NCBI GenBank assembly: GCA_003246765.1
Contig: QKDA01000128.1
Coordinates: forward strand, 1 to 37,801
Origin: Spirochaetales bacterium
GTDB taxonomy: Bacteria > Spirochaetota > Spirochaetia > Treponematales > Treponemataceae
DNA length: 37,801 nt
Reading direction: 5' to 3'
Below the pieces are notes generated by a model. It did not search any database. It was given only the letters and a program-made list of their open reading frames with translations, and was not told where the DNA came from. This document shows positions 1 through 19,369 of this stretch, one piece after another. Position 1 is the first letter of the stretch. The number at the start of each line of letters is the position of its first letter. The position numbers and the translations under genes are program-made.

Positions 1-1734
1 GCCTGCCAGCAGACCTCGGACTCAAGCCCTGCCGCGGACGCCCCCGTCACCATGACCGGCATCAGCGTGACCCCCTCGGTCATCACGGATCTGCAAGTCA
101 CGGATCAAGTGCCCATCGTCGTAAAGGCGCTCTACTCCAACGGGACCACAAAAACGGTAAGCTACAGAGCTACGTTTTCCACTGGAGCCCACTACAGCTT
201 TTCATTGAACGTTCTTACCTCCACCGCCGAGGGTTCAGGAACTATCACGGTAACCTATCAAGACTTTACGGCGGATCTCCCCTATACCATGGTTGACAAC
301 TATACCAGCCTCGCGCTTTTCGCGGGCGGGACTCCCTTGACCAGCGTAACCGCCGACATAGGCGACGATTTGGAGTTCACCGCGGTGGCAACCCTCAAGG
401 ACGGTAGCACCCAGGAAGTAACCCTGGCCGACGGTCTCGCTCTCTCCAGGGACGGCTTTTTCTGCGGCACCCGGGAGATCGCCGACGGAAGCGGAACCAA
501 GACGGTTAACGTGCTCCATGCGGTAGACGGGATGAGCGGGAACATCACCGCAACCTTTAAGTCCCGCTCAGCCAGCGTTGACGCCAGCGTGGGCGACTTC
601 GCCTTCGGCGCCCGCCGCTTCCTCCCCGCGGAAATCACCTCCCGGAAGGCCGTAGCCTATTCGGGCTACCGCACCGGCGACTCGCCGAACACCCAAACCT
701 ATCCCGAAAAGTCGGAGATTCTTGAGGATCTTCAACTCCTGGAGGAGGCGGGATTTTCCTTCCTCAGGCTCTTCGACACGAGCGTCCACGCCTATCGGAC
801 GATCGAGAACATCGACGAGAACAACCTCGACATGAAGGTTCAGCTCGGGGTTTGGATCGCCGGCAGCGACGCCGCCCAGGGAACCGCAAACTGGGAGCAG
901 ATCGAGGGAGCCCTGGATCTCATCGCCTCGTATCCCGACGTCATCGCCTCCGTAAGCATCGGCAACGAATGCATGGTAGACTGGAACACCTGGGCCTCCT
1001 GCCCCCCTGCGGACATTCGCCGGTACGTGCAGTACATGCGCTCCAGGGTATCCGTGCCGGTTACCACCGACGACAACTGGGAACCCTTCGCGAAATACGA
1101 CATTCAGGACGATCCGGGAAAGGATCTAATTGGACCTACGGGGGCCTTGATTTACCGAAACGGCGACGTTAATACGCCCTACGAAACCGATCAGGTTGCG
1201 AAGGTTATCGACTATCTCGCCCTCCACACCTACCCCATAGCCGACAGCCCTTACGGAATATGGTCCTGGCAACGCACGGACGTCGAAGCAGGCCCCGCGC
1301 GGGGCGTGGCCATGATGGATCTCGCCCTCAAGGTGGCGCAAAAGCAGTACCAGGCCGCCCGTGACCACCTCACGGACGACCTGGGACTCTCGGACATGCC
1401 CATCATCATCAGCGAGACCGGTTGGAAGCACGCGGACACCAGCAACTGGCCCGGAAGGTCCCACCCGGTAAACGCCAAGATGTACTATGACAGGATCAAC
1501 GAGTGGGTTTACGGCTCGGGCCGCGCGGCCAGCGCCGCCGAAGGCCCCTGGGTATGCTTCTATTTTGAGGCCTTTGACGAGCCCTGGAAACTGGGCGACG
1601 ATGGCTGGGGCTTCTGGGACAAGGACCGAAATCCCTTGTACGCCCTCTGGGCCCAGAGCGACAGCGATTCCATCGACATGCCCGTCGGAGGCACAGCCTA
1701 TACCGACGACGACGTTGCCTACTACGGAATGTAA
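1..1734 (+). CDS. GH17-type beta-1,3-glucanase lipoprotein, 5' end outside window
   Basis: Likely a secreted, lipid-anchored glycoside hydrolase of family 17 that cleaves beta-1,3-glucan. The first in-frame ATG is at 52, but the frame is open to base 1 and reads ACQQTSDSS there. That looks like the end of a lipobox with Cys as second visible residue, so the true start lies upstream and ATG 52 is internal. Counting from ATG 52, residues about 1-180 form Ig-like beta-rich repeats (ISVTPS, SGTITVTY) that probably present the enzyme. The catalytic barrel starts near residue 190. SIGNE (Glu about 306) fits the GH17 acid/base and ISETGW (Glu about 455) fits the nucleophile motif. A strong terminator follows, and a convergent GH3 gene lies downstream. 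Fold and family are well supported; linkage specificity is inferred from the family and from the GH3 and GH64 neighbours. Confidence 0.8.
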   Translation, partial: ACQQTSDSSPAADAPVTMTGISVTPSVITDLQVTDQVPIVVKALYSNGTTKTVSYRATFSTGAHYSFSLNVLTSTAEGSGTITVTYQDFTADLPYTMVDNYTSLALFAGGTPLTSVTADIGDDLEFTAVATLKDGSTQEVTLADGLALSRDGFFCGTREIADGSGTKTVNVLHAVDGMSGNITATFKSRSASVDASVGDFAFGARRFLPAEITSRKAVAYSGYRTGDSPNTQTYPEKSEILEDLQLLEEAGFSFLRLFDTSVHAYRTIENIDENNLDMKVQLGVWIAGSDAAQGTANWEQIEGALDLIASYPDVIASVSIGNECMVDWNTWASCPPADIRRYVQYMRSRVSVPVTTDDNWEPFAKYDIQDDPGKDLIGPTGALIYRNGDVNTPYETDQVAKVIDYLALHTYPIADSPYGIWSWQRTDVEAGPARGVAMMDLALKVAQKQYQAARDHLTDDLGLSDMPIIISETGWKHADTSNWPGRSHPVNAKMYYDRINEWVYGSGRAASAAEGPWVCFYFEAFDEPWKLGDDGWGFWDKDRNPLYALWAQSDSDSIDMPVGGTAYTDDDVAYYGM

Positions 1735-1771
1735 AGGGCTGCCCTAAGAGGCTCCCCCAGGGAGACGGAAA

Positions 1772-1808
1772 GGCCCCCGGTACCTCAAGGTTACCGGGGG
1801 CCTTTTTT
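1772..1808 (+). terminator. intrinsic terminator after GH17 gene
   Basis: GGCCCCCGGTA (1772-1782) pairs perfectly with TACCGGGGGCC (1792-1802) and is followed by six T (1803-1808). It ends the GH17 transcript. It also lies just past the stop of the convergent GH3 gene, but on that strand only three T follow the stem, so it is weaker there. Confidence 0.9.
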
Positions 1809-1810
1809 CA

Positions 1811-3649
1811 TTACCAGCTCAGCCCGTACCCGAAGGGAAAGAGGGGGTCGTAGACGGCGTCGCCCACGTTAACCGGAACCTGTTCCACCGAGCGGGGCCA
1901 GCTCACGGGGAGCTTTCCCGAGGGCGATACGGCGCCCAGGAGTACGTCCGCCACTCCGGCCCCTTCCGTTCCGGGAAGCCAAGCCGCCACGAAGGCGTCG
2001 GAGGCATCGATCGCCTCGGTTACGATAAGGGGCCTGCCCGAAATGAGCACCGTCACGAGGGGAATGCCCGCTGCCTTCACGTTCTTCACTGTCTCTATGT
2101 GGGACGAGGGAAGCGCGAGGGTCCTTGAGTCTCCGCGCCCCTCGGCATAGGGCCTCTCGCCGATCACGGCCACCGCCGCGTCCAGCTTTACTCCCTCCGC
2201 ATCCTTGAGGCTCGTATATACCGTCACGCCGTCTCCCAGGGCGGAGCGGAGCGCCTCAAGAATCGTGGTGCCCTCGGTAACCGCGCCGTTTTCCCCCTGC
2301 CAGCTGATGGTCCAGCCCCCGCACTGGGCCCCCAGGTTGTCCGCGAGAGGACCGGTAACAAGGACGTTTTTCAGGCCGTCTGCCTTCAGCGGGAGGATGC
2401 CGCCGTTCTTGAGGACCACCACGGACTTGGATACCGCCTCCCGGGCGAGCTTCCGGTGTTCCGGGGAGCCCACCTCGGAGAGGAGGGAACGGTCCGCGAA
2501 GGGACGCTCGAAAAGGGCGAGCTCGAACTTGGCCTTGAGGATCCTCGAGACCGCCTCGTCGATCCTGGCCTCCGGAATCGCGCCCGAGCGCACGAGGCCC
2601 AGCGTGGTTTCGATAAATCGCTTATAGTCCTCCGGTATCATTACCATGTCTATTCCCGCGTTGATTCCCGCGGCGATTTGGTCCTCATACTCCCCGGGGA
2701 GCTCCTCGAGCCCGGCCCAGTCGGACACCACGAAGCCGGAAAAGCCGAGCTCCCCGCGAAGGAGTCCCTGGACGAGTTCCCCGTTCCCGTGCATCTTGGC
2801 GCCGTTTACGGAACTGTAGCTCGTCATGGCCGAACCGACCCCGGCGGCCACCGAGTCGACGTAGGGCGGCAGGTGAATCCCCCGGAGCTCTTCCTCGGAA
2901 AGCTTGGAGTCGCCCCGATCCCTTCCCCCCGCGGTGCCGCCGTCGGCGATAAAGTGCTTGGCCGTGGCGAGAATCGTCTTTCCGTCGGAAAGGTCGCCGC
3001 CCTGATAACCCCGCACCGCCGCGGCCCCGAGGCGCGAGACGAGGCCGGGTTCTTCACCGTAGCCCTCGTAGGTGCGGCCCCAGCGCTCGTCCCGGGGAAC
3101 CGCGAGGCAGGGGGCGAAGTTCCAGTCGATCCCGGTTGCCGCGACCTCGATCGCCGTAGCCCGGCCGATACGCTCTACCAGATCCTCATCACCCGCGGCG
3201 CCAAGGCCTATCTGATGGGGGAATATGGTAGCCCCCCGGACGTTGTTGTTGCCGTGAACCGCGTCTATGCCGTAGATGACCGGGATGCCGAGCCTGGAGG
3301 ACAGGGCGATTTCCTGGAACCCGTCGTACATATCCGCCCATCCCTCCGCCGTATTCACCCCGGGAGCCGAACCGCCCCCCGAGAGGATGGACCCGAGGGC
3401 GTAACGGGCGATGTCTTCATCGCTCTCCAGGAACTGACGGTCCGCCTGGGCCATCTGTCCCACCTTCTCCTCAAGGGTCATCCTGGAAAGGAGGTCCGCA
3501 GCCCTTTCGTCCGCGGAAAGACCGGGGTTCCTGTAGGCCGCTCCCTTCCCCGGCCGCGAAAGCCCCGCGCAGGACGCGAGAAGCAGCGCCAGGGAAGCCG
3601 CCGCGACGATCGCTCCCCCCGCGAGGGTCCTTTTACTTCGTTCTCTCAT
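1811..3649 (-). CDS. GH3 exo-beta-1,3/1,4-glucanase lipoprotein
   Basis: A 612-residue glycoside hydrolase family 3 enzyme, of the type of plant exo-glucanase ExoI and bacterial ExoP, which releases glucose from beta-1,3/1,4-glucan ends. A signal peptide with lipobox LLAS-C (Cys27) predicts a lipoprotein. The (beta/alpha)8 domain carries KHFIADGGTAGG (about 231-242) and SDWAG with nucleophile Asp310. The second domain has GGWTISWQG (about 444-452) and GERPYAEG, whose Glu503 matches the ExoI acid/base in its GEHPYAETKGD motif. These ExoI-like motifs separate it from ordinary BglX-type beta-glucosidases. The start is ATG 3647-3649, preceded by AAAGGAG about 10 bases upstream. It is last in line after the ABC transporter operon, with a terminator-like hairpin in between (3667-3705) and no separate promoter that I can see. 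Confidence 0.88.
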   Translation of the reverse strand: MRERSKRTLAGGAIVAAASLALLLASCAGLSRPGKGAAYRNPGLSADERAADLLSRMTLEEKVGQMAQADRQFLESDEDIARYALGSILSGGGSAPGVNTAEGWADMYDGFQEIALSSRLGIPVIYGIDAVHGNNNVRGATIFPHQIGLGAAGDEDLVERIGRATAIEVAATGIDWNFAPCLAVPRDERWGRTYEGYGEEPGLVSRLGAAAVRGYQGGDLSDGKTILATAKHFIADGGTAGGRDRGDSKLSEEELRGIHLPPYVDSVAAGVGSAMTSYSSVNGAKMHGNGELVQGLLRGELGFSGFVVSDWAGLEELPGEYEDQIAAGINAGIDMVMIPEDYKRFIETTLGLVRSGAIPEARIDEAVSRILKAKFELALFERPFADRSLLSEVGSPEHRKLAREAVSKSVVVLKNGGILPLKADGLKNVLVTGPLADNLGAQCGGWTISWQGENGAVTEGTTILEALRSALGDGVTVYTSLKDAEGVKLDAAVAVIGERPYAEGRGDSRTLALPSSHIETVKNVKAAGIPLVTVLISGRPLIVTEAIDASDAFVAAWLPGTEGAGVADVLLGAVSPSGKLPVSWPRSVEQVPVNVGDAVYDPLFPFGYGLSW

Positions 3650-3666
3650 AGCTCATGATCTCCTTT

Positions 3667-3705
3667 GAAAAAAGAAAAAGGCAGCCCCCCGTGCGGAGGA
3701 CTGCC
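3667..3705 (-). terminator. terminator/attenuator between ABC permease and GH3
   Basis: On the minus strand GGCAGTCCTCC (3695-3705) pairs with GGGGGGCTGCC (3680-3690), including two G-T pairs, around a 4-base loop. A U-rich run (CTTTTT, then TTTTTTC, 3667-3679) follows. It sits between the last permease and GH3, so it probably lowers GH3 expression relative to the transporter by partial termination, or ends the operon. Confidence 0.75.
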
Positions 3706-3727
3706 CGTATGCCGCCCGAAGGCGACC

Positions 3728-4618
3728 CTAGTTCTGAAGCTTGTCGGTCACCTTCTTGTTTATCAAGGTCATGGTGATGATGATGAAAAACAGGATCCAG
3801 GCGATGGCCGACGCCTTTCCGAAGTTGTTGAAGTTAAAGCCCGTTGCCAGCAGGTAGTAGGCGCTGGTGAGCCCCGCGTTGTTCGGTCCGCCCATCTGCT
3901 CGTAGCCCCTCATGAGAACGAAGGGTTCCTCGAAGAGCTGCATGCCGCCGATGATGCTCAAGGAAACGCCGAAGAAGATGATCGGCAGGAGCAGGGGCAA
4001 TGTCACGAAGCGGTGAATCTGGAAGCCCCTGGCGCCGTCGATTTCGGCGGCCTCGTAAAGCTGCCGGTCGATCGACTGAAGCCCCGCGAGGTAAATTACG
4101 GTGTTCCACCCGATGAACCTCCAGTTCACCATGATGGCGATGCTCGCGCGGATCGCGTTGGGCTCCTGGGTCCATTTCACCCTGGGAAGGCCGAACCAAT
4201 TCTCGATGATGTAGTTGAGCCACCCGTAGTTGGCATCGTAAAGCTGGCTGAAGACCAGGGCGATAACGACGGTACTGGTAATGTAGGGCAGAAAGTAGAC
4301 GGTCTTGAAAAAACCCGTTCCCTTGATCTTCTTGTTGTTCAGGAGAATGGCCAGGGGGATGGCGAACACGTGCTGGAGCATGGAACCCCAGATGAGCAGG
4401 AGGACGGTAGTCCACAGGGAACCCTTAAAGAAGGGGTCCGTGGTGAGAAGCTGCACGTAGTTGCGGAATCCCCGGAAATCCTGAGGCCCGGAGATGGTCC
4501 ACTTGAAGAAGGACATGGTGATGGAATAGCCGATGGGGAATACGGCGAAGATCAGGAAGAGAATAAAGAAGGGGCTGATGAATACGTAGGGCGCCAAGCG
4601 CTGTTGTTGATTTATCAT
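3728..4618 (-). CDS. sugar ABC transporter permease (MalF/UgpA type)
   Basis: A 296-residue inner-membrane permease of a CUT1-type carbohydrate ABC importer. About six hydrophobic segments are visible, the first at residues 10-35. The EAA loop that contacts the ATPase reads YEAAEIDGARGFQIHRFVTL. ATG 4616-4618 lies 3 bases after the stop of the other permease, with AAGGGG at the end of that gene serving as ribosome-binding site, so the two are translated together. No ATP-binding subunit is encoded nearby. In many Gram-positive bacteria and spirochaetes a shared MsmK-type ATPase encoded elsewhere serves several such systems. The likely substrate, a beta-glucan oligosaccharide, is inferred from the neighbouring glucanases. 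Confidence 0.9.
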   Translation of the reverse strand: MINQQQRLAPYVFISPFFILFLIFAVFPIGYSITMSFFKWTISGPQDFRGFRNYVQLLTTDPFFKGSLWTTVLLLIWGSMLQHVFAIPLAILLNNKKIKGTGFFKTVYFLPYITSTVVIALVFSQLYDANYGWLNYIIENWFGLPRVKWTQEPNAIRASIAIMVNWRFIGWNTVIYLAGLQSIDRQLYEAAEIDGARGFQIHRFVTLPLLLPIIFFGVSLSIIGGMQLFEEPFVLMRGYEQMGGPNNAGLTSAYYLLATGFNFNNFGKASAIAWILFFIIITMTLINKKVTDKLQN

Positions 4619-4621
4619 ACA

Positions 4622-5467
4622 TTACCCCTTGAGACTGCCTTCGGTGAGGCTGTCGATTATTTGTTTGTTGAAGGCGATAAACACCGCCATGAGGGGAAGC
4701 ACCGCGAGTACGGTTCCCGCCATGAGCCCTCCGCGGTCGCCGTCCATTTGCATGAAGAGCTTGGAAAGCGCCACCGGGATAGTGGTCTTGTCGATGGTGG
4801 GAAGCATGACCAGGGCGCCGAGGAAGTTGTTCCAGCTTCCGATGAAGGTGAGAATTCCGAGGACCGCTATGCCCGCCTGGGACAGGGGGAAGGCGATCTT
4901 CATGAGGATGTTGAATTCGGTGAGCCCGTCGATGCGCGCCGCGTCGAGAAGGTCGTTAGGAATGGAGTCCTGCATGAACTGGGTCATCATGAAGATTCCG
5001 AAGGCAGGGGCCATTCCCGGGATGATGAGGGGAAGCCAGGTCCCGTACCACTTGAAGGTGATCATCATCTTGAAGAAGGGAATGATGTTGAGGAACTGGG
5101 GGATGGCCAGGGTGCTCATGATAAAGAGAAAGGCGGCCTTTTTCCCCTTGAACTCGTACTTCGAGAGCGCAAAACCGCCCATGGTGCAGAAGAACACCAC
5201 CGTCACCGTCGACAGCACCGCGATACCCACGCTGTTCATGAAGTTGGTCGCGAAGGGGATGTCGTTAAACAGCCTCTGCACGTTGGTCATGAAGGAGCCC
5301 TTGAAGAAGATATGGGGCGGGTTGCGGTATACCTGGGTGCCCGGCACCGTGGAAAGCACCATCATGTAATAGAAGGGAAAGGCGAAGAGAAGGCCGAAGA
5401 ATGCCAATAGAATGTACACTATCGCCTTATTCACTGTGTTCGTCGATCCCGGACGTAAGTTACTCAT
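4622..5467 (-). CDS. sugar ABC transporter permease (MalG/UgpE type)
   Basis: A 281-residue inner-membrane permease, partner of the MalF-type protein encoded directly downstream. It has about six membrane segments, the first at residues 12-35. The EAA loop reads LLDAARIDGLTEFNILMKIA. Start ATG 5465-5467 is preceded by GAGGT. The gene follows the binding-protein gene after a 61-base gap that holds a strong hairpin (5495-5515). The order binding protein, MalG-type, MalF-type differs from the common SBP-MalF-MalG order. Confidence 0.9.
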   Translation of the reverse strand: MSNLRPGSTNTVNKAIVYILLAFFGLLFAFPFYYMMVLSTVPGTQVYRNPPHIFFKGSFMTNVQRLFNDIPFATNFMNSVGIAVLSTVTVVFFCTMGGFALSKYEFKGKKAAFLFIMSTLAIPQFLNIIPFFKMMITFKWYGTWLPLIIPGMAPAFGIFMMTQFMQDSIPNDLLDAARIDGLTEFNILMKIAFPLSQAGIAVLGILTFIGSWNNFLGALVMLPTIDKTTIPVALSKLFMQMDGDRGGLMAGTVLAVLPLMAVFIAFNKQIIDSLTEGSLKG

Positions 5468-5494
5468 CTGCGTACCTCGAAGAATGAAAACCCG

Positions 5495-5515
5495 GGTGCC
5501 GGGAATCCCGGCACC
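5495..5515 (-). promoter_or_regulatory. intercistronic mRNA hairpin between binding protein and permease
   Basis: GGTGCCGGG and CCCGGCACC form a perfect 9-bp stem with a 3-base loop in the gap after the binding-protein stop. No U-run follows at the stem base (CGGGTTTTC). Such hairpins in sugar ABC operons (for example malE-malF) commonly protect the upstream binding-protein mRNA from 3' decay, so that it outnumbers the permeases. That role is inferred here. Confidence 0.7.
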
Positions 5516-5528
5516 AAGGTTCGTTTGG

Positions 5529-6833
5529 TTAGTCGATCAGGGAGTTGATCTCGGAAAGCGCGGTTGCGTAGGCCTGCTCGGCGGTCTTGCCGTTCACGAG
5601 CACGTCCGTCACGCCGTTGCCGAAGATCGAGTTGATGGCGGCGTCGTATTCAGACACCTGCATCGGGGGAATGTTCCGGGCGATGTCGCCGTAGATCAGG
5701 CGGACCTTCTGGCCCCCGAAGAACTCCACGGGCTCGCTCATGACGGGGTCGTTGTACACCGAGGTGAGGGCCGGGAAGGCGTCGATGGTCTTGAAGGTGG
5801 TGATCTGGGCAACGGGGGAGGTGGACAGGTACTTGAGGATCTCCCAAGCCACGGCCTTCTGCGCCGCGGGAACCGCCTCGGGGATGCTCAGGTAGGTACC
5901 GCCCTGGGAGGCGTACACCTTGCCGGGGAGGTAGGCCACGCGCCAGTCGCCGGAGAGGTCCGGGCACACCCAGGTCTTCATGGTGCCGCCCCACCAGGCG
6001 CCGTTCACGATGGCGGCCACGTTGCCGTCGGGGAAGGCCTGGATCCAGGGTCCGCTCCAGCCGCCGAGGTCGGCGTCGATCTTGGCGTCGCGGATGTTCT
6101 TGACGAGGTTGAGGGCGTCGATGAACTTCTGCTTGGGCTCGAGAACCTTGCCGTTGGGGCCGAACCAGCCGCCCTTGCCGCCGTTGAGGGGCATCATGGC
6201 GACCTCGTTGGCGTGGGGAATGGCGAACTGGTCGATCTTGCCGTCGCCGTCCCGGTCCTTGAGGAGCTTCTTGCCGGCGGCGATGAATTCGTCCCAGCTC
6301 TTCATGTTGTCGAAGTTGACGCCCGCCTTGTCGGCCAGGCTCTTGCGGTAGAAGAGAACCGCGGGGGCGATGTCCACGGGCATGGCCACGAGGGAGCCCT
6401 TCTTGGTGGTGGCGTTGGACATGGCGAACTTGACGATGTCCTTGCCGGCGGTGAGGCCGTTGAAGGGGGCCTGGGCAAGGTCGGTAAGCCCGCCGCCCTC
6501 GACGAACTTGGCCACGTAGCCGATCTCGAGGGACTCGATGTCGTTGGTGGCCTCGCCGGCGGCGAGAACCGTGGTCAGGCGGTTATGGTGCCCCGAGAAG
6601 TCGGAGGTCTGGAACTTGATGGTTACGTTCGGGTACTTCGCCTTAAAGTCGGCGGTCGCGAACACGGCCTTGTAGGCGGCCTCGAGGTCGCCGAAGGCTC
6701 CGATGCTGATGGTGTACTGCTTGGCGGGGTCGTAGGCGGGAATCGCCTGTCCGGCTCCGTCGGTCTTGCCGTTGGCCACGGCGAGGGAGGTGAGGCCCAC
6801 GAGGGCGATAAGGGTCGCCAGCGCTTTCTTCAT
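5529..6833 (-). CDS. sugar ABC transporter substrate-binding protein
   Basis: A 434-residue extracellular solute-binding protein (family 1). A Sec signal peptide (MKKALATLIALVGLTSLAVA) lacks a lipobox Cys, so the mature protein should be periplasmic and begin near NGKTDG. The body shows features of the family, such as the NGAWWGG region, the RVAYLPGK region, and Trp-rich stretches that often line sugar sites. ATG 6831-6833 follows AAGGAG at 8-9 bases. It is first in an operon with two permeases. A sigma-70 promoter with an overlapping LacI-type operator lies about 215 bases upstream, leaving a long leader with a hairpin. Specificity is not readable from sequence; a beta-1,3-gluco-oligosaccharide is inferred from context. 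Confidence 0.9.
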   Translation of the reverse strand: MKKALATLIALVGLTSLAVANGKTDGAGQAIPAYDPAKQYTISIGAFGDLEAAYKAVFATADFKAKYPNVTIKFQTSDFSGHHNRLTTVLAAGEATNDIESLEIGYVAKFVEGGGLTDLAQAPFNGLTAGKDIVKFAMSNATTKKGSLVAMPVDIAPAVLFYRKSLADKAGVNFDNMKSWDEFIAAGKKLLKDRDGDGKIDQFAIPHANEVAMMPLNGGKGGWFGPNGKVLEPKQKFIDALNLVKNIRDAKIDADLGGWSGPWIQAFPDGNVAAIVNGAWWGGTMKTWVCPDLSGDWRVAYLPGKVYASQGGTYLSIPEAVPAAQKAVAWEILKYLSTSPVAQITTFKTIDAFPALTSVYNDPVMSEPVEFFGGQKVRLIYGDIARNIPPMQVSEYDAAINSIFGNGVTDVLVNGKTAEQAYATALSEINSLID

Positions 6834-6906
6834 CTTTTCTTCTCCTTAGTATTTTCCGCACGCTAATGATTGCCGCCGCGCGCGGGTTGTAGCGGCATCA
6901 AACAAA

Positions 6907-6942
6907 GGGCGCGACCGGGGCTGTTTGGACCCGTTCGCGCCC
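6907..6942 (-). promoter_or_regulatory. hairpin in leader of ABC operon, possible attenuator
   Basis: On the minus strand GGGCGCGA (from 6942) pairs with TCGCGCCC (to 6907). A further CGGG/CCCG pairing lies inside and TTTGTTT follows. It lies in the roughly 215-base 5' leader between the predicted start point (about 7050) and the binding-protein ATG. The stem is strong, but the U-run is interrupted by G, so it may be an attenuator or only a stabilising structure. Confidence 0.45.
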
Positions 6943-7045
6943 CCAAAAAGCTCTTGCACTGCTTTTTTGACCACCAGACATTGACCGTACGGACGAACAT
7001 GGTATCGCAGGCGCATTTGTTGGTAATCCGACACATAATCGGGCA

Positions 7046-7085
7046 ATGTATACGTTATCATATATCTGGTTTGTCATCTCGTCAA
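7046..7085 (-). promoter_or_regulatory. promoter and LacI-type operator of ABC operon
   Basis: On the minus strand, -35 TTGACG (7080-7085), a 17-base spacer and -10 TATGAT (7057-7062) form a near-consensus sigma-70 promoter. The dyad ATGATAAC/GTATACAT (7046-7061), with the central CG usual for LacI-family operators, overlaps the -10 box and start point. Bound repressor would block RNA polymerase. The 19 bases 7044-7062 are identical, inverted, to 9294-9312 at the small-lipoprotein gene. Confidence 0.72.
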
Positions 7086-7720: not shown

Positions 7721-7738
7721 AATGTAATCGTGTACATT
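7689..7738 (+). promoter_or_regulatory. promoter and LacI-type operator of CBM lipoprotein gene
   Basis: -35 TTGACA (7689-7694), a 17-base spacer and -10 GATGAT (7712-7717) form a plausible sigma-70 promoter. Just downstream, AATGTAATC/GTGTACATT (7721-7738) is a dyad with perfect outer arms and central CG. A further TGTACA at 7742-7747 repeats the right arm. The operator would cover the start point. Confidence 0.62.
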
Positions 7739-7762
7739 TTATGTACAACAAGGAGGACTGTT

Positions 7763-8407
7763 ATGAAAAAATTGAAAACCGCTGCGATGCTCCTCATCAC
7801 CGCGGGATTAACCGTTATCGCGATGGGATGCGCCAGCGCTCCCAAAGCCGCGGGCGACAGCGGCAAAGCGGACTGGTCGGCGAATCTGCTTACCAACGGA
7901 GACTTTGAAGCCGGCCAGGATCCCTGGACCCCGTGGATTGACACGGGATGGGGCGGCGCCGGTGAGGTTACCTGGGATAACGGCGTAGCCACCCTCAGGA
8001 TTGACGAGATGGGAGAACAGCCCTGGGCAGTGGCCATGCACTACAAGAAGGTGCTCTTCGAAAAGGGCGAACGGTACCGCGTCAAGTTTGACATGAAGTC
8101 GGACATGAACCGCATTGTTCGCTTCAGCATCGGAAACGGTCTCGCTCCGGCCGATCCGCCCTATCTCAACTACCAAGATATCGAAATCGGTACCGAGTGG
8201 AAGACTTACGAATTCGAATTCGTAATGAAGTTCAGAACCAACAAATTCGGTCGGCTCGACTTCAACTGCGCCTATAACCCCGGAATGTTCCTTCCCGAAG
8301 GTTCACCCTGGAGGGACGAGGCCAAGTTGAAAGCCACTGGCGGCGCGACCGTTTATATCGACAACGTGATACTCCAGAAATGGGGAACCGGTTCAGAGGC
8401 TAAGTAA
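7763..8407 (+). CDS. lipoprotein with CBM4/9-like carbohydrate-binding domain
   Basis: A 214-residue lipoprotein, probably on the cell surface or outer membrane, made of essentially one carbohydrate-binding module. The signal peptide ends in a lipobox IAMG-C (Cys23). Residues about 37-210 match the pattern of CBM4/9-like jelly-roll modules: LLTNGDFEAGQDPWTPW at the start, aromatic residues along the strands, and a final VYIDNVIL strand. Several CBM4 members bind beta-1,3-glucan, which would suit this locus. ATG 7763 was chosen over an upstream in-frame ATG at 7730 because AGGAGG lies 6-7 bases before it and the signal peptide begins there. It has its own promoter with a LacI-type operator and a strong terminator further downstream. 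No catalytic domain is present, so it likely acts in capture, not cleavage. Confidence 0.82.
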   Translation: MKKLKTAAMLLITAGLTVIAMGCASAPKAAGDSGKADWSANLLTNGDFEAGQDPWTPWIDTGWGGAGEVTWDNGVATLRIDEMGEQPWAVAMHYKKVLFEKGERYRVKFDMKSDMNRIVRFSIGNGLAPADPPYLNYQDIEIGTEWKTYEFEFVMKFRTNKFGRLDFNCAYNPGMFLPEGSPWRDEAKLKATGGATVYIDNVILQKWGTGSEAK

Positions 8408-9270
8408 CGGGAAATTGAATATCTGATATAGAGCCGACAATGCACGCAGAACAGCATGTTAACGGCATTAGGGTTCGCTAGGATTAAGATTTTCTGCAAT
8501 CCTAATTATCGGATTTCAACATATCGATTTTTGAAGGATACTAGCTAATATCAGTATCAAGAGCTGTCCGACAAACAAAGTGTTGGACAGCTTTTTTTTA
8601 CTGTTTCAATGGATTTGTGGGTTTTCTCTTTAGGCTATTAACCTCTTCTCCATATTTTTTGTATTCGTATTCAGTATTGATACATTATTATTTTTTTTCA
8701 CGTTGAGTACGTGACAATTTCTTAATTTATTCCAGGCAGAAAAAGATTAGCAATTTGCTTTATTATGCAGCGGGACAATTTTAATAAAAAAAAGCATAAA
8801 AACGGTTGGAATAGCCGTATGATCTACTCGGAATAGGCCCGGATCCGATCCAAATTTATAATGATAATTGAATGCAATTCAAATTCGTCTTGAACCAACC
8901 CGGCGGTATACCGGATATCGGGAAATGAAAAAAGCTCAAGTTCGTTATAACATCCCCAAACAGCATATGTTCTTACAATACAACAAATAAATGATAATAC
9001 TCATCAAGCAAGGTCCTTTTTCACCCCTTTATATTAAGCAATTAGTTGAATCAAGCATAATGTTTTTTGCTAAATTACTCCCCGGAAATCTTGCCGTAGA
9101 AGAGATCGTATTGTAAAGAAACGTTAAGCTTTACATACGTAAGCGTACTATTCGCAACACAATTACATCTTCACTATACACGATTATGATAAATCCCTGC
9201 ATGTAGATTTCGCCCATTTTTTCATCGTTTTAATGTCATCTTTTTTTTTATGAATTTAGAAATATTTTTG
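8408..9270. other. AT-rich gene-free region
   Basis: About 0.86 kb without a credible coding region, rich in A/T with many stops in all frames. Besides the terminator at 8562-8599 it holds small dyads: TTGAAT-GCA-ATTCAA (8868-8882) and CGGTATACCG (8904-8913). The second contains the GTATAC core also seen in the operators. I recognise no RNA gene or mobile element. An unannotated small RNA or decayed DNA is possible. Confidence 0.5.
8562..8599 (+). terminator. intrinsic terminator after CBM lipoprotein gene
   Basis: AGCTGTCCGACA (8562-8573) pairs with TGTTGGACAGCT (8581-8592), one G-T pair, 7-base loop, followed by a run of T (8593-8599). It lies about 155 bases after the stop codon. Confidence 0.88.
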
Positions 9271-9312
9271 TTGACGTCCTGAAATAACCGGCTTATGATA
9301 ACGTATACATTG
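9271..9312 (+). promoter_or_regulatory. promoter and LacI-type operator of small lipoprotein gene
   Basis: -35 TTGACG (9271-9276), exactly 17 bases, -10 TATGAT (9294-9299), with the dyad ATGATAAC/GTATACAT (9295-9310) across the -10 box and start point. Both hexamers, the spacer length and the 19-bp core match the ABC operon promoter, while the spacer sequence differs. The binding site is therefore conserved independently of the rest of the promoter. Confidence 0.75.
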
Positions 9313-9338
9313 AGCCGCTAGGCAGAAAGGAGTTGTAT

Positions 9339-9965
9339 ATGAACAAGAAAATTAGTTTTGCGTTGGTTGCGATTATGCTGGCCTTCAGCATGGTCACTTT
9401 CGTAGGTTGTGAAGATGCTACCAAGGATGATCCCGCTCCTCAGAATCTTGCGTTGCCGACCGATGCGCCTGAGGGAGCTATCTTCCTCTATGGAGGTACG
9501 CCCAAGGTAGGCGAATGGCAGAACTGGGGAATGAACAACGTAGTTGATGAGGCGTATGCGGCGGATGCAAGTTATAATCCCTGTATTCTGTTAACCAGCG
9601 CAACTGGCTGGGGCAATGGATACCCCTGGGCCTTCGATGCGGGTTCGCTTACGGGTATGACTACGTTCTCCTTCAAGGTTAAGTCGGAGGATTATGACTA
9701 CGTCGCGGTTAAGATGCCTGGTTCTTCCCTCATTGGCGACGCTGCCGTGCAAATCTTCTTTGACGGAAGGACTGCTGGCACCACTGTTACCGACGTAGCT
9801 GGCGCTCCTGGTTGGAAAAAGGTAGTTGTAAACGTTGCAACCGTGTGGGGTAATCTTGACGCCGCTACGCAGTGTGCAATCTACTATCAGGTCATACCTG
9901 TTGTACACGGTTCGTCGACTCCTGAAGGCGAAATCATGTACTTGGCGGATATTTACCTGTACTAA
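9339..9965 (+). CDS. small lipoprotein of unknown function, beta-sandwich-like
   Basis: A 208-residue predicted lipoprotein: signal peptide with lipobox TFVG-C (Cys24), then a short linker and about 165 residues of predicted beta structure rich in Trp, Tyr and Gly (YGGTPKVGEWQNWGM, ATGWGNGYPWAF, APGWKKVVV). The pattern resembles galactose-binding-like carbohydrate modules, but I cannot assign a family. ATG 9339 follows AGAAAGGAG; a TTG two codons earlier is less likely. The gene shares its promoter and operator type with the ABC operon and precedes the porin-like gene, so a role in glucan binding at the surface is inferred. Its GC content is lower than that of the flanking enzymes. Confidence 0.7.
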   Translation: MNKKISFALVAIMLAFSMVTFVGCEDATKDDPAPQNLALPTDAPEGAIFLYGGTPKVGEWQNWGMNNVVDEAYAADASYNPCILLTSATGWGNGYPWAFDAGSLTGMTTFSFKVKSEDYDYVAVKMPGSSLIGDAAVQIFFDGRTAGTTVTDVAGAPGWKKVVVNVATVWGNLDAATQCAIYYQVIPVVHGSSTPEGEIMYLADIYLY

Positions 9966-9991
9966 TACCGTGCACGCTTAGTATGTAAAGT

Positions 9992-10031
9992 TCGCCACTA
10001 CAGCCTTGTGCGGTAGTGGCGACTTTTTTTT
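9992..10031 (+). terminator. intrinsic terminator between lipoprotein and porin-like genes
   Basis: TCGCCACTAC (9992-10001) pairs with GTAGTGGCGA (10013-10022), loop of 11 bases, followed by C and eight T (10024-10031). I see no strong promoter between it and the next gene, so readthrough may supply the porin-like gene. Confidence 0.88.
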
Positions 10032-10109
10032 GGATAGGTAAATGCTGTTTCGTTAGGTAACTTTTATTTGTCATACTGCCTAACCCATTGTTACTTATGA
10101 GGAGACAAG

Positions 10110-11648
10110 ATGAAAAAGCTATTGCTTGCTTTGTTAATTATTAGCCTAAGCTTTTCCGCGTTCGCGGAATTTACGGGCGCTCGCACCGAGAACCTTTATG
10201 ACGAGAACCTTCCCACGCAGTCTTCGCCCATTAAACCTTCGGTTGCCTTTAAGCCTAAACTAGGCGTTATTTGGGGTTATGATTTTGACCGCAAGGAGTC
10301 AGGCTTCCATGAAGTAGTCGACTTGGACGTTGAATGGGAAATTCTCCCTTACAAGGACTATGCAACCGATACATCGGATCTCGAATACGGTCTACCCTAC
10401 GGCCTAGTGATGTTCTCCGGCGGGCACCTTGTGTTAAAGATGCAGGATCAAACGGGCGATATGGCCGTACATGGGACAGGCGGCACCACGGCAAAAAAGA
10501 TTGAACCGTACCTATCTTTGAATTTTGAGAAAATCTGGGGAAAGGTCATTTGGGATCCCTTCTATGTCGTACTTGCGGCAAACGACACGAACTTTTACGA
10601 GCGTCACACCGGATGGAACTTTCCTACTTCCAATAATTTTATCCGCGCCAACTGGGCACACATGGGTAACCGCGTACAAGGCTGGGTGAGCCCGCTGAAT
10701 ACTGACCCCTGGACCCTTGCCGGTAATTATGACACCCTGAAAACAACGACCGGAAGCGCAGGAATTGGCGTTGGATACGTTGCTAACGTCACCGAGGTTC
10801 TGTTCCAGGTTGGTTCCAATGATGTAAATTTTGATTCGGATAACTTCTTTGGCGATCATAACCCAACAGGAACGAATAAGGATAACGCGTACGCCTTTGG
10901 GCTCTCGGTTGAATCAAACCCCATCGGCGACCTACAGGTACGGGCATCATCCTATACGGGCATAAATTATAAAAGCCCGACAGGCCTGAATAACACTCCC
11001 TTGGGCTTTAGCGGCATGGTTGGCTGGCGTTATGATATCACGAACACCATTAGCTTTACCCCGCATACCGCGATGGACGTTGCCTTTGCCAGAGTTGACG
11101 ACGATCCCTTCGGAACGTACCGAACCGAAAACAGTTTTGGTTTTGATATCGTCTGGCCGGGTTCTAACGGTTGGGGAGACAATCCGCTCATCAATAAGGA
11201 AACCAATATCTTTGCGGGTCTTACTGTAGACGCAATTGTTTGGACGAAAGAGTTTGAAGATCCTACAATGCACTTTTCTGTTTCTCTACATGAAGACAAC
11301 GCTGGCGGGCTTATTCCGAACCTGGGCACCACATTTGTGTACGAGATCAAGAACCTTATTGCCCCAAGTGTAGAGGGAGATCCGCAGATGTTTTACGGCG
11401 TGTTCGTTGATTACAACCTGTGGAATCAGTTCCGTCCGTATACGCGAATCAACAGGACAACAAGCAATGCGGGAACAAAGGCTGACGAGGCAAACCGCTT
11501 GCCGCTTCAAACGGAAATTGGTCTTGAAATTACCGTAATCCCGCACACGATAATTACGCTTAAGTATCAGTCCGCAGACTTTATTGACGTGGTCCAAAAA
11601 TCGGATAGTAAAGGTCTGTTTACTTCGGCTTTCATCGTAACCTTCTAA
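10110..11648 (+). CDS. putative outer-membrane beta-barrel (porin-like) protein
   Basis: A 512-residue exported protein. It has a classic signal peptide with cleavage after AFA (residue 19), alternating hydrophobic/polar strands with many aromatic residues, and a C-terminal Phe (FIVTF), the usual BAM recognition feature of outer-membrane barrels. I do not recognise a named family. ATG 10110 follows GAGGAG at about 7 bases. It lies after the small lipoprotein in a region of lower GC content, ends at a strong terminator and stands next to the LacI regulator gene. From this context it may be the outer-membrane channel for glucan oligosaccharides, in place of a SusC-type receptor, which is absent. 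Confidence 0.68.
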   Translation: MKKLLLALLIISLSFSAFAEFTGARTENLYDENLPTQSSPIKPSVAFKPKLGVIWGYDFDRKESGFHEVVDLDVEWEILPYKDYATDTSDLEYGLPYGLVMFSGGHLVLKMQDQTGDMAVHGTGGTTAKKIEPYLSLNFEKIWGKVIWDPFYVVLAANDTNFYERHTGWNFPTSNNFIRANWAHMGNRVQGWVSPLNTDPWTLAGNYDTLKTTTGSAGIGVGYVANVTEVLFQVGSNDVNFDSDNFFGDHNPTGTNKDNAYAFGLSVESNPIGDLQVRASSYTGINYKSPTGLNNTPLGFSGMVGWRYDITNTISFTPHTAMDVAFARVDDDPFGTYRTENSFGFDIVWPGSNGWGDNPLINKETNIFAGLTVDAIVWTKEFEDPTMHFSVSLHEDNAGGLIPNLGTTFVYEIKNLIAPSVEGDPQMFYGVFVDYNLWNQFRPYTRINRTTSNAGTKADEANRLPLQTEIGLEITVIPHTIITLKYQSADFIDVVQKSDSKGLFTSAFIVTF

Positions 11649-11674
11649 CGCAGATAGTTTGAATCGTTACAAAA

Positions 11675-11708
11675 AGCTCTTCCCCGCATCGGGAAGAGCT
11701 TTTTTTTT
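11675..11708 (+). terminator. intrinsic terminator after porin-like gene
   Basis: AGCTCTTCCC (11675-11684) pairs perfectly with GGGAAGAGCT (11691-11700), 6-base loop, preceded by A-run and followed by eight T from 11701. Confidence 0.93.
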
Positions 11709-11831
11709 AGCTATACCGATTTAATTTTAAACAGTACATAAACAGGACTTTACTTCTCCTCAAATATGTCAGTGTATTAAAGGAAAGATCGAACGAGAAC
11801 TGTCTCCCCCCCCGACTTCACCCCTCCCCCG

Positions 11832-11840
11832 TGCTATACT
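11832..11840 (+). promoter_or_regulatory. extended -10 promoter of the LacI-type regulator
   Basis: TGCTATACT is an extended -10 element (TGn plus TATACT) with no good -35 box at 16-18 bases. The start point would be near 11847, giving a short leader with GGGGGAG six bases before ATG 11859. Confidence 0.5.
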
Positions 11841-11858
11841 CCTTCGGGGGAGTTTTTT

Positions 11859-12860
11859 ATGCCGAATCAAAAAGACGTTGCGCGCCTGGCGGGGGTTTCC
11901 CACGCATCGGTGTCGAGGTACCTCGCGGACCCGGAAGCGGTGAGCGAGGGGAACCGGGAGAGGATCCGCGAGGCCATCGAGATGCTCAACTACAAGGTAG
12001 ACGCCGCCGCGCAGACCCTGCGTACGGGGCGTACCAAGCACGTGAGCATTCTCGTGCCGGGGTCGGCGCCCTTTTACTGGGTTCTCGTACAGGCCATGGA
12101 AAAGAGGCTCAGCGAGGAAGGCTACTTCAGCAGCGTGCTTTTCACCCGGGAATTCGACCAGCTCGTTTCGGTCAAGTCGGGCATGGTGGACAAGATGATC
12201 CAGTCGAACCTGATTGAGGCATGCGTGCTCTTTCCCCTCCTCAAGGAGGAGGACGAGCGCCTGGCCGAGAAGATCCACCGCTACCACAAGAACTTTATCG
12301 TGGTGGACAATTCCCTCCTGGGAGCCCACATTCCCCGGGTGGTCTTCGACAACTACGGGGCGGGGAAGACCGCCGCCCGGGAAATGGTCAAGAAGGGACA
12401 CAGGGACATTCTCCTCCTCACGGGAGACGAGATCTTCGAGTCCGCGGTGATGCGGAAGAAGGGTTTCCTGGAGGGCATCGCAGAGGCGGGACTCCCCGAG
12501 GAAAGCGTCACGGTCATCAAGACGGGCTTTTCGCCCCAGGTAGCCTACCCCCATTTGGAGAGGATCAAGCTCCCCCCCTTCACGGCGGTGTTCGCCGCCA
12601 ACGACACCACCGCCCTGGCCTTCGTGAACGTGGCCCACCAAAAGGGGCTCCAGTGCCCGGGGGACTACGAGATTATCGGCTTCGACAACAATACCGAGTA
12701 CACCCCCTACTCCATCCCCACCCTTTCCACCTTCCACCAGCCGACCTTCGACGCGGGGGTGAAGACCGCCGAACTCGTGCTCGACATGATCAACGGGAAG
12801 GCGATCCCCTACGAGACCGTGTTCCCGGCGGAGCTGATCCGCAGACAGTCGTTTTCGTAA
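11859..12860 (+). CDS. LacI-family transcriptional regulator
   Basis: A 333-residue DNA-binding repressor. The N-terminal helix-turn-helix (KDVARLAGVSHASVSRYLADP, about residues 5-25) and hinge helix (about 45-60) are typical of LacI/GalR proteins. Residues about 62-330 form the periplasmic-binding-protein-like sensor, which includes VFDNYGAGKTAAREMVKKGH and IIGFDNNTEYTPYSIPTLST. Such proteins release DNA (or, less often, bind it) when they sense a sugar. It lies between the porin-like gene and the GH64 gene. Dyads with central CG occur at four promoters of the locus, so it is the best candidate for their regulator. The inducer is not readable; a gluco-oligosaccharide is inferred. It faces the GH64 gene convergently. 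Confidence 0.92.
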   Translation: MPNQKDVARLAGVSHASVSRYLADPEAVSEGNRERIREAIEMLNYKVDAAAQTLRTGRTKHVSILVPGSAPFYWVLVQAMEKRLSEEGYFSSVLFTREFDQLVSVKSGMVDKMIQSNLIEACVLFPLLKEEDERLAEKIHRYHKNFIVVDNSLLGAHIPRVVFDNYGAGKTAAREMVKKGHRDILLLTGDEIFESAVMRKKGFLEGIAEAGLPEESVTVIKTGFSPQVAYPHLERIKLPPFTAVFAANDTTALAFVNVAHQKGLQCPGDYEIIGFDNNTEYTPYSIPTLSTFHQPTFDAGVKTAELVLDMINGKAIPYETVFPAELIRRQSFS

Positions 12861-12897
12861 GCCCCCAGTCCGGAACGAGGACATAGAAAGCCGCAGA

Positions 12898-12935
12898 CAA
12901 AAAAAGGGCCGGCCTCCCCGAGGGGAAACCGGCCC
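12898..12935 (-). terminator. intrinsic terminator after GH64 gene
   Basis: On the minus strand GGGCCGG (12929-12935) pairs with CCGGCCC (12906-12912). An inner CCCC/GGGG pairing follows, and the stem is followed by a run of T (12898-12905). On the plus strand no T-run follows, so it serves the GH64 gene and not lacI. Confidence 0.87.
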
Positions 12936-12987
12936 GAGAGAGGGCGGAAAACCCGGCCCGAGGGACGCCTGTCCCGCGGGTCGCAAC

Positions 12988-15669
12988 TTACCAGTTGACG
13001 TCGATCACGACGGCGCGGCCGTTGTAGCTCCACAGGGCGCCGGAGAAGTCGCCTACGTCGTCGTAGGCGAAGCCGTAGGCCTTTCCGTTCACCGCGTGGT
13101 CGTGCATGAACTTCGAGAAATAATTGCAGGGCGCCGCTTGGTAGAAGGATGCGGGGTCGTCCCACTTCGAGGAATCTTCCATGACGTGCCGGTTGAACGC
13201 AGCGGCGATGCGGGCCTGAATGGCGCCCTCCTCGGTGTTGCCCGTGGCGAGAACCCCGGAGGCCTCGAAGATCTCCGTGGCGTTGGGCTTGCGGGCTACC
13301 GCGGTAAAGTTTGTCCTTCCGGTGCGGGAGAACACGAAGGCGTCGCCGTAGACCCGTCCGCGGTACTCGTAGGTATTGCCGTCCCAGTACATGTTGAACA
13401 CGAGGTCCTGAGCGCGGTACTGATTCCAGATCTGGTTGACGTAGGCGTCGTAGTACGCGGCGTTCGCGGAGGCGAGGCCGAAACCGTCGGGATCCTTGCA
13501 GGGGGCATTGATGCGGTACTCGTTGATGAGACCCTGGAATTCGGCGGGCACTTCCCGCTGCCAGGCGTCCCAGAGCGCCGCGCGGGTTTCGGAGATGCCG
13601 TTCTCGCCGAGGTAGGTCGCCCCGCCCGAGCCGTCCTTTTCGTACACGCGGGCAAGGAGGGGAACGCTCAGCTGGTCAACCTGGGTGGTGTTGCCCCAGA
13701 AACCGACCGGGCTTCCCGCGGCCCAGGTGGCCGGGACGATGGCGAACTCGTACCAGTCGAAGAACACGTCGGCGTTCGGGTCCATGGCGTTGTTGAGGTC
13801 CGGCGCGGCGTAGGCCACCCTTCCGTTCCCGTCGACGTTCACGGTGATGTAGAGGGGCTCTCCCATGGTCACGAAGACGCGGCCGGAGGAGACGTAGGGC
13901 GGGAGCTGGAAGCCTTCCATGTCGCTGAGGCGGAAAGAGTAGTTGGCGCAGAGGCGGCCGTTCTTCGCGAGCTGCCCGTTGTCGGCGAGGCTCATGGGCT
14001 GGAGGGTTCCGTCGGGCTTGACCCAGCACCAGTCCTGGGCCTCGTTGCGGGCGAGCATGGTCAAGAAGATCTCGGAGTCGTCCCAGGCGCCGGAGGTACG
14101 GTTGGCGAACTGCATGGTCATGTGCATGCCGGGGGCCAGGGGCAGGAGCTCGGGGCCGGTGTATTCGGTCCACTGGGCGTACACGGTAAGGTTCGAAACG
14201 ACGGGGGTAGCGGCGGTGAAGGCAGCGCCTGAACCGTCGCGGGAGAGGTTCCAGCCGCTGAAGGTATAGCCCGTCCTTCTGGGGTTCTCGGGGAGGTTCC
14301 CCAAGGAAGCTCCCGCTTCAACGGTCATGGAAGAGGGAGAAGCGGGCACCGTGGCGCCGTTGGAGTCGAAGGAGACCGTGGCGGTCTCGACTCCGATCCA
14401 GTAGGCGTACACCGTGATGTCGCCGTAAACGGGGGTTTCCGCGGTGAAGGAATCCCCTTCCCCGTTGGGAGCGGTAAACCAGCCGCCGAAGTCGGCGAGG
14501 GCCTTCACGGGCTCCGCGGGGAGGCTTCCGAGGCTGTCGCCCTCGGAGGCGACGCTCATGGAGGCGGGGGTCGCGGGTGTGTCGGCGCTTGAGGAATCGA
14601 AGGTAACCGTGGCGAAGTCCGGCAGGGCGCCGTACTCGAAGGAAGCCCAGCTTGCGGTATTGGAGAGGATGCCCTGGGGAACGTTGGTCTCGATTCCGGA
14701 GCGGAGGGTCAGCACGTCCAGGTAGATCTTGGCGCCCTGAACGTAGGTGGGATGGCTGAAGGTGTAGGTCCAGGTACCGCCGTTATTGGCCATGCCCTGG
14801 GAGGCGAGCACGAGGCCGGTGCCGTTGCCCTCGGAAAGGAAGAGCCTGGCCTGGTCCACGGGGGCCGCGGGGGTATAGCTCACGGTGAGGGAAGAGGCGG
14901 TCATGGCGCTGACGCTCACGGTGCCGTTAGGCCCGGTAAGGGTGAGGCCTCCGGAGGAGTTGAGCCTCCAGGCGGCGTACACCGTAAGGCTTTCGTTTAC
15001 GACGGTAGTCTCCGTGAACCGGGCGCCGCCCCCGTTGGGCGCGGTATACCAGCCCAGAAAGCTGTAGCCTGACCGAGAGGGGGCGGAAGGCAGCTGGGAA
15101 ACGGTGCCCCCGGCGGGGGAAACCAGGATGGAGGAGGGAACCGCGCTCACGGTGGCCCCGGCGGAGTCGAAGGTGACCAGGGCGCCCTCGGATGAGCCGC
15201 CGTAGGTGAAGGAGGCCCAGGTAGTGGAGTCCCCGAGAATTCCCTGGGGCACGTTAACCTCCCCCGTCGGGGTGGAGGCGAGAACGTCCACGTAGATCTT
15301 CGCCCCGTCGACATAGCTCGGATGGCTGTAGGTAAAGGTCCAGGAGCCCCCGGAATTGGCCATGGGCTGGGAAGCGACCACGAGGCCCGGCGCGTCGCCG
15401 GGGGACAGGTAGATGCGGGCCTGGCTTACGGGAGACGCGGGGGTGTAGGATACGGTAAGACTGGTACCGGTCATTCCGGAAACCTGAAGGGTTCCGTTCG
15501 GTCCCGTCAGGGTAAGGGGAGCGGCGGCGGCGCGGGAAGCTGCGGACATTTCCCCGCTCCCCTGAATGGGCTGAAAACAGGATGCCAGAAGGGTAACCGC
15601 CGCGGCGGCGACGGCGGCGATGCGGCTACGGGCAAACCGTACCTTATTGTTCGAAAAAATTGCCCTCAT
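12988..15669 (-). CDS. modular GH64 beta-1,3-glucanase lipoprotein
   Basis: An 893-residue surface enzyme. The signal peptide ends in lipobox LLAS-C (Cys31). Then come a beta module (about 52-157), an InlB-type B-repeat (164-234), a second copy of that module (242-347), two more B-repeats (352-424, 430-500) and a C-terminal GH64 domain (about 507-893). The two module-plus-repeat units are offset by 190 residues. GH64 enzymes release laminaripentaose from beta-1,3-glucan. Here FDWYEF (Glu641) and TTQVDQ (Asp665) are the likely catalytic residues, and AYGFAYDDVG near the end is a family signature. The duplicated module may bind glucan, perhaps like CBM56, but that is not certain. ATG 15667-15669 follows AGAGGAG. 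A LacI-type operator lies about 100 bases upstream. Confidence 0.87.
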   Translation of the reverse strand: MRAIFSNNKVRFARSRIAAVAAAAVTLLASCFQPIQGSGEMSAASRAAAAPLTLTGPNGTLQVSGMTGTSLTVSYTPASPVSQARIYLSPGDAPGLVVASQPMANSGGSWTFTYSHPSYVDGAKIYVDVLASTPTGEVNVPQGILGDSTTWASFTYGGSSEGALVTFDSAGATVSAVPSSILVSPAGGTVSQLPSAPSRSGYSFLGWYTAPNGGGARFTETTVVNESLTVYAAWRLNSSGGLTLTGPNGTVSVSAMTASSLTVSYTPAAPVDQARLFLSEGNGTGLVLASQGMANNGGTWTYTFSHPTYVQGAKIYLDVLTLRSGIETNVPQGILSNTASWASFEYGALPDFATVTFDSSSADTPATPASMSVASEGDSLGSLPAEPVKALADFGGWFTAPNGEGDSFTAETPVYGDITVYAYWIGVETATVSFDSNGATVPASPSSMTVEAGASLGNLPENPRRTGYTFSGWNLSRDGSGAAFTAATPVVSNLTVYAQWTEYTGPELLPLAPGMHMTMQFANRTSGAWDDSEIFLTMLARNEAQDWCWVKPDGTLQPMSLADNGQLAKNGRLCANYSFRLSDMEGFQLPPYVSSGRVFVTMGEPLYITVNVDGNGRVAYAAPDLNNAMDPNADVFFDWYEFAIVPATWAAGSPVGFWGNTTQVDQLSVPLLARVYEKDGSGGATYLGENGISETRAALWDAWQREVPAEFQGLINEYRINAPCKDPDGFGLASANAAYYDAYVNQIWNQYRAQDLVFNMYWDGNTYEYRGRVYGDAFVFSRTGRTNFTAVARKPNATEIFEASGVLATGNTEEGAIQARIAAAFNRHVMEDSSKWDDPASFYQAAPCNYFSKFMHDHAVNGKAYGFAYDDVGDFSGALWSYNGRAVVIDVNW

Positions 15670-15766: not shown

Positions 15767-15824
15767 TGTACACGTGTACACGTAAACTCTCATCATTGTT
15801 GCTATGGGTTTAAAAAATTGTCAA
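15767..15824 (-). promoter_or_regulatory. promoter region and LacI-type operator of GH64 gene
   Basis: TGTACAC/GTGTACA (15767-15780) is a perfect 14-bp palindrome with central CG, matching the operators at 7721-7738 and 7046-7061. On the minus strand -35 TTGACA lies at 15819-15824; the -10 box is unclear (none of good match at 17 bases). The operator would lie just downstream of the start point. Confidence 0.62.
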
Positions 15825-19264: not shown

Positions 19265-19288
19265 TGCCAAAAGCGCTCCTAAAAGGGA

Positions 19289-19316
19289 ATTCTAGCGATT
19301 TAGACGGCCTGGTCAA
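19289..19316 (-). promoter_or_regulatory. sigma-70 promoter of the HD-GYP operon
   Basis: On the minus strand, -35 TTGACC (19311-19316), a 16-base spacer and -10 TAGAAT (19289-19294). The start point would be about 18 bases before the gene. Confidence 0.55.
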
Positions 19317-19341
19317 CCCTCCGCGGACGGATTGAAAGGCC

Positions 19342-19369
19342 TTGGCGTTATATACTAACCTTATATACG
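19342..19369 (+). promoter_or_regulatory. possible promoter of the small secreted-protein gene
   Basis: TTGGCG (19342-19347), 16 bases, TATACG (19364-19369). TTATATAC is directly repeated (19348-19355 and 19361-19368). The hexamers are only fair matches. Confidence 0.35.

Follow-up and report, generated by a model that had tools for sequence, protein, structure and literature searches.

A predicted beta-1,3-glucan utilization locus of a Treponemataceae bacterium and its P66-related barrel porin candidate

Gene content of the locus and its closest relatives

The window, which is the whole stretch of DNA analyzed here (37,801 nt), represents an entire contig (C102) of a 3.28-Mb Treponemataceae draft genome that comprises 273 contigs and is 91% complete. 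All ten genes named by the first-pass annotation were found at the same coordinates and on the same strands (Table 1).

Table 1. Genes and predicted regulatory features of the locus, in window positions
Feature	Position	Strand	Support
GH17 beta-1,3-glucanase, 5′ end lost at contig edge	1..1734	+	Pfam PF00332, 29.2 bits (cut-off 28.2)
GH3 beta-glucosidase/exo-glucanase, lipoprotein (LLASC)	1811..3649	-	Pfam GH3 N and C domains
CUT1 ABC permease (MalF/UgpA-like)	3728..4618	-	PF00528 BPD_transp_1
CUT1 ABC permease (MalG/UgpE-like)	4622..5467	-	PF00528 BPD_transp_1
Periplasmic sugar-binding protein of the importer	5529..6833	-	PF01547 SBP_bac_1
Predicted promoter TTGACG-N17-TATGAT with adjoining operator AACGTATACATT, for binding protein, permeases, and GH3	7045..7085	-	
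Inverted repeat TGTACAT-TTT-ATGTACA, operator candidate upstream of CBM gene	7731..7747	.	Read from the sequence; pattern match 7727-7738
CBM4_9 lipoprotein	7763..8407	+	Pfam PF02018 (CBM_4_9)
Intrinsic terminator 3′ of CBM gene	8559..8595	+	
Predicted promoter TTGACG-N17-TATGAT with adjoining operator AACGTATACATT, for LPX and barrel	9271..9311	+	
LPX, small acidic lipoprotein	9339..9965	+	Lipobox FVGC; no Pfam family
Terminator-like hairpin with T8 in the LPX/barrel gap	9987..10031	+	-21.7 kcal/mol, z -4.4
Predicted outer-membrane beta-barrel, 512 residues, of a spirochete porin family including Borrelia P66	10110..11648	+	
Intrinsic terminator 3′ of barrel	11671..11704	+	
LacI-family regulator	11859..12860	+	Pfam LacI/Peripla_BP_3
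GH64 beta-1,3-glucanase, lipoprotein (LLASC), three List_Bact_rpt	12988..15669	-	PF16483, 239 bits
Perfect palindrome TGTACACGTGTACA, operator candidate upstream of GH64	15767..15780	.	

Both catalytic Glu motifs were found in the GH17 enzyme, and the GH3 enzyme carries the SDW nucleophile motif; its nearest NCBIfam model is an exo-beta-1,3/1,6-glucosidase, with a score below the cut-off. Complete lipoprotein signal peptides were identified in GH3, GH64, the CBM protein, and LPX. The three glycosidases had all been described as lipoproteins, which stands for GH3 and GH64, while GH17 is only presumably one because its frame, cut at the 5′ end, begins on the “AC” of a probable lipobox. The sugar-binding protein has an ordinary signal peptide and no lipobox, and SBP_bac_1 together with two BPD_transp_1 permeases identifies a CUT1 importer. 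The locus contains no ABC ATPase gene, and a search for the importer ATPase with a single model, PF17912, gave no match in the 91%-complete draft. No match to SusD (PF07980) was found anywhere in the genome, and the one TonB-receptor barrel lies on contig C241, outside the locus. The lack of SusC/D is expected in a spirochete and no surprise in itself. Just beyond the locus, HD-GYP and EAL proteins of cyclic-di-GMP turnover are encoded at 17270-21875.

The proposal of a beta-1,3-glucan locus without SusC/D was borne out, as the gene set is kept in another genome of the genus (G195) together with three GH16 enzymes. The order there is GH16, LacI, GH16, GH17, GH3, permease, permease, binding protein, and a 236-residue lipoprotein, followed on the opposite strand by the CBM lipoprotein, the barrel, and a CBM-GH16 protein. 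Identity between the window and G195 is highest for the permeases (82% for 3728..4618 and 78% for 4622..5467), the binding protein (75%), and the CBM protein (75%), followed by GH3 (65%), GH17 (60%, complete in G195), the barrel (54-57%), and LacI (54%). The relatives of the window LacI that lie beside GH16/GH17 in G195 and in a second genome, G487, are 54-56% identical to it. G487 (77% complete) keeps GH16-LacI-GH16-GH17 on a contig with no barrel or importer. In two same-genus genomes, a methyl-accepting chemotaxis protein adjoins this four-gene block (L122:5941-8202 and L123:7119-9386) and is perhaps a sensor of glucan oligosaccharides.

The path from polymer to cytoplasm had been called complete within the window, which does not hold: the contig start truncates the locus, and the GH16 block lies on another contig of the same genome, C74. 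That contig ends in GH16(-)-LacI(+)-GH16(-), and its final GH16 gene begins just inside the contig end; the same order lies immediately upstream of GH17 in G195. We infer that the window very probably begins where C74 ends; a search for overlapping sequence between the two found none.

Other treponeme GH64 genes (L106, L107, L109, L110, L113, and L115) have as neighbors large lipoproteins whose N-terminal part resembles a GH18 chitinase (RVVGYFVEWG), and there is one in the window's genome as well, on contig C15. These neighborhoods suggest fungal cell-wall loci. They would be consistent with a target other than laminarin-type beta-1,3-glucan, either a mixed-linkage beta-1,3/1,4 or a beta-1,6-branched fungal glucan, as would the several beta-glucan specificities known within GH16, GH17, and GH3. 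GH64 and GH17 together, however, indicate beta-1,3 linkages, and we regard a different glucan as unlikely. Beta-1,3-glucan is the best guess at the substrate because GH17, GH64, and GH3 occur together here, with two GH16 enzymes on C74 and three in G195.

Predicted operators and the small lipoprotein LPX

The 16-mer TGATAACGTATACATT has just two copies in the 3.28-Mb genome, one ahead of the ABC operon and the other ahead of LPX-barrel, and both sit immediately behind TTGACG-N17-TATGAT. Counterpart elements in G195 are TATGATTGCGTATACATT, which precedes the ABC operon, and AACGTATACATT, in the gap that separates GH16 from GH17. The candidate palindromes before the CBM gene and GH64 share a related core, GTGTAC. 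The LacI encoded downstream of the barrel is the likely, though unproven, owner of these operators, and two LacI paralogues are candidate readers. Both intergenic stretches flanking the CBM gene are AT-rich (about 930 bp, 35-38% GC). ARAGORN called a tRNA-Thr at 12550-12645, antisense within the LacI gene, which is probably spurious. No RNA families were found, and a PHROGs search gave no match.

The first-pass annotation had suggested that LPX and the barrel may be an unrecognized outer-membrane glucan uptake pair; on this view they would be a dedicated two-part complex, a functional counterpart of SusD/SusC. LPX lies immediately upstream of the barrel, a single predicted promoter-operator would serve both, and in the GH65-type loci described below a small lipoprotein is encoded 4 to about 210 nt ahead of the barrel. 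However, a terminator hairpin lies between LPX and the barrel, and in mannan-type loci the barrel is not directly preceded by a small lipoprotein. After removal of signal peptides, LPX showed no detectable relation to the small lipoproteins that accompany other barrels. No LPX relative was found in G195; its place there is held by the CBM lipoprotein, whose stop codon lies 14 nt ahead of the barrel ATG. The absence of LPX from G195, its CBM-barrel operon, and the unrelated lipoproteins elsewhere rule out an LPX-barrel pair as a general rule, and a dedicated complex of the two is improbable. What survives of the proposal is that the barrel belongs to the locus, as supported by the G195 gene set, the shared promoter-operator, and its co-distribution with the importer. 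Because of the 14-nt spacing in G195, the CBM protein is a better candidate than LPX as the conserved barrel partner, and it is probably a glucan-binding protein, presumably exposed at the cell surface.

LPX itself gave nothing significant against PDB and no relatives in viral contigs. One homologue of its domain was found, in a Gracilinema MAG, where the flanking GH16 and CBM9 genes suggest that LPX binds glycan. A 664-residue protein at L031:2032-4023, apparently caspase-like at its start, has an LPX-like domain as its C-terminus. The GC3 of LPX and of the barrel is 0.54, compared with 0.70-0.94 in the other genes. From this low GC3, LPX and the barrel could be a later addition to the locus, although in G195, too, the barrel has a low value (0.62).

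The barrel family and Borrelia P66

Against Pfam, the window barrel matched OMP_b-brl alone, at a score below the threshold (15.7 bits), and its family gave nothing significant against PDB sequences. Of 12 genomes of the genus, two have both the close barrel and the binding protein, and the other 10 have neither. This co-inheritance rests on few events, the close barrel being known from two genomes. Profile searches recovered distant barrels in 25 of 296 sampled Spirochaetota genomes, the weakest matches being tentative, and a scan of 84,980 species with just two peptide patterns returned solely Treponema/Spirochaetaceae records. A further same-genus genome encodes a distant family barrel at L125 (G484:C171; E 1e-163 against the combined profile).

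CUT1 permeases lie at most 9 kb from the barrel in 11 of 13 family loci; the count covers loci flanked by 5 kb or more on both sides, G195 included and the window excluded. Most of these follow the GH65-type arrangement, which runs LacI, GH99-like lipoprotein, small lipoprotein, barrel, binding protein, permease, permease, GH65, GH65, HAD, and Spirochaeta thermophila-like genomes (L082 and L083) have a related arrangement. In another type, the barrel accompanies GH5-CBM27, an N-acylglucosamine 2-epimerase-family protein, and GH130, that is, a mannan locus. Outside the genus, therefore, homologues of the barrel were found mostly away from glucanases, in the GH99-like/GH65 and GH5/GH130 loci, an outcome that the first-pass annotation had itself named as counting against its reading. 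Nor is the barrel tied to GH64, because none of 10 other GH64 loci has a barrel nearby; at genome level, both occur in five genomes (Fisher p 4e-4), an association confounded by relatedness. Since distant barrels lie in non-glucanase loci and other GH64 loci lack one, the barrel looks like a member of a general oligosaccharide porin family and not half of a glucan-specific pair.

The AlphaFold model of the window barrel (pLDDT 39) is too poor for use alone. With the model of a relative (pLDDT 54), OprD/Occ porins came out on top (Z about 15, rows tied), and chitoporin and maltoporin were also listed. The models support a porin-like barrel only, with strand number and fold class approximate.

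Among the first profile matches was the C-terminal portion of a protein from Borrelia that Pfam names P66. When a combined profile of 15 barrels was aligned to a profile of seven P66 sequences with hhalign, the probability was 98.3% (E 1.3e-14) and the alignment ran full length, pairing columns 4-503 with columns 3-598. Adding two more divergent barrels raised this to 99.1% (E 1.5e-18), and single P66 sequences scored 96.5-97.6% against the barrel family. None of 60 block-shuffled P66 profiles reached the real score (117.0; shuffled profiles at most 28.9), and the controls stayed at 0.4% for the reversed profile, 0.1% for a TonB receptor, 0.1% for Escherichia coli LamB, and 0.4% for OmpF. In the reciprocal search over 687 ORFs, the P66 profile ranked P66 itself first and the barrels next, the only exception being one weak match at the end of the list. 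In the first hhalign comparison, sub-family profiles had scored only 45-58% against P66 (45% for the window-type profile alone, with two sequences), a result that would have carried no conviction but for the combined profile and its shuffled controls. The motif EDNxxGxIPxLG is common to both, and the clearest stretch is HEDNAGGLIPNLG in the window barrel and YEDNKKGIIPNLG in P66. Judged by these profile comparisons, the barrel family is homologous to Borrelia P66 along its whole length. The relation, again on sequence grounds, is at superfamily level and not one of Pfam membership, as PF11263 (Attachment_P66) gave no match for the window barrel and 334 bits for Borrelia P66.

P66 was described in 2022 as lacking homologues outside Borrelia (PMC9539438), and its biological substrates were left for future study in 2025 (PMC11790652). 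In bilayer work, maltohexaose blocked P66 by about 90%, while mono- or disaccharides did not (PMC3819385), in keeping with an origin from an oligosaccharide porin. It is tempting to suggest, at slightly less than even odds, that spirochetes own a family of oligosaccharide porins that are substrate-specific, lie in polysaccharide loci, and each receive their substrate from a surface lipoprotein partner, and that P66 is a former member turned large porin and adhesin. The conductance of P66 is very high, and the protein also acts as an adhesin that binds integrins (PMC9539438, PMC11790652), which, along with the occurrence of family members in loci for differing glycans, could mean that the barrel, as a general-diffusion porin or adhesin, lies in sugar loci by coincidence, with oligosaccharides taking other porins. 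This is doubtful, however, given that barrels recur inside CUT1/glycosidase/LacI loci in many genera and that the window barrel appears to be co-regulated with the importer through the common promoter-operator.

Proposed uptake path and comparison with known systems

With a probability of roughly 0.7, we propose that the window holds most of a Treponemataceae beta-1,3-glucan utilization locus in which a P66-related barrel porin feeds oligosaccharides to a CUT1 importer. Laminarin, or fungal or callose beta-1,3-glucan, would be cut by the lipid-anchored GH64 and GH17 and by GH16 from the neighboring contig, while the CBM4_9 lipoprotein, and probably LPX too, may hold it at the cell. Oligosaccharides would cross the outer membrane via the 512-residue barrel, be trimmed by the lipoprotein GH3, and enter the cytoplasm through the CUT1 ABC system of binding protein and two permeases, its ATPase presumably encoded elsewhere; the transport genes may be controlled by LacI through the common operator.

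To our knowledge, few descriptions exist of how diderm spirochetes pass oligosaccharides across the outer membrane with neither TonB nor SusCD, and our literature search found no paper on a porin in spirochete sugar loci. Members of the barrel family named here turn up repeatedly in loci for glucan, alpha-glucan, and mannan. The glucan locus itself is a good but ordinary spirochete variant of the porin-plus-ABC scheme, and the chief gain is that P66 is placed, by the profile evidence, within a spirochete-wide porin family of polysaccharide loci. Non-pathogenic P66 relatives with a predicted substrate would open the fold, channel, and ancestry of P66 to direct testing.

Like the Bacteroidota laminarin SusCD loci, the locus combines glycosidases, predicted surface glycan-binding lipoproteins, and a putative uptake barrel, but those loci have a TonB-dependent SusC with SusD, and here neither is present and ABC import would be used instead. 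CymA-CymDEFG and LamB-MalEFGK likewise encode an outer-membrane porin with a CUT1 oligosaccharide importer, although LamB has no sequence similarity to the window barrel (hhalign 0.1%) and the enzymes here are lipoproteins from the same locus. The Treponema/Spirochaeta thermophila GH99-like/GH65 loci (L070-L083) share the barrel family, LacI, the CUT1 importer, and a lipoprotein glycosidase, but differ in their enzymes for alpha-linked substrates and in a small lipoprotein unrelated to LPX. Borrelia P66 (Pfam PF11263; TCDB 1.B.51 Oms66) is about 100 residues longer than the window barrel, about 18% identical to it, and integrin-binding, and its gene lies between lactate permease and glyA-type genes, in no glycan locus. 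P66 is a proven, maltohexaose-binding porin (PMC3819385), whereas a channel role of the window barrel is predicted; the two share the EDNxxGxIPxLG motif, homology over the whole barrel, and a beta-barrel architecture that is predicted for the window protein.
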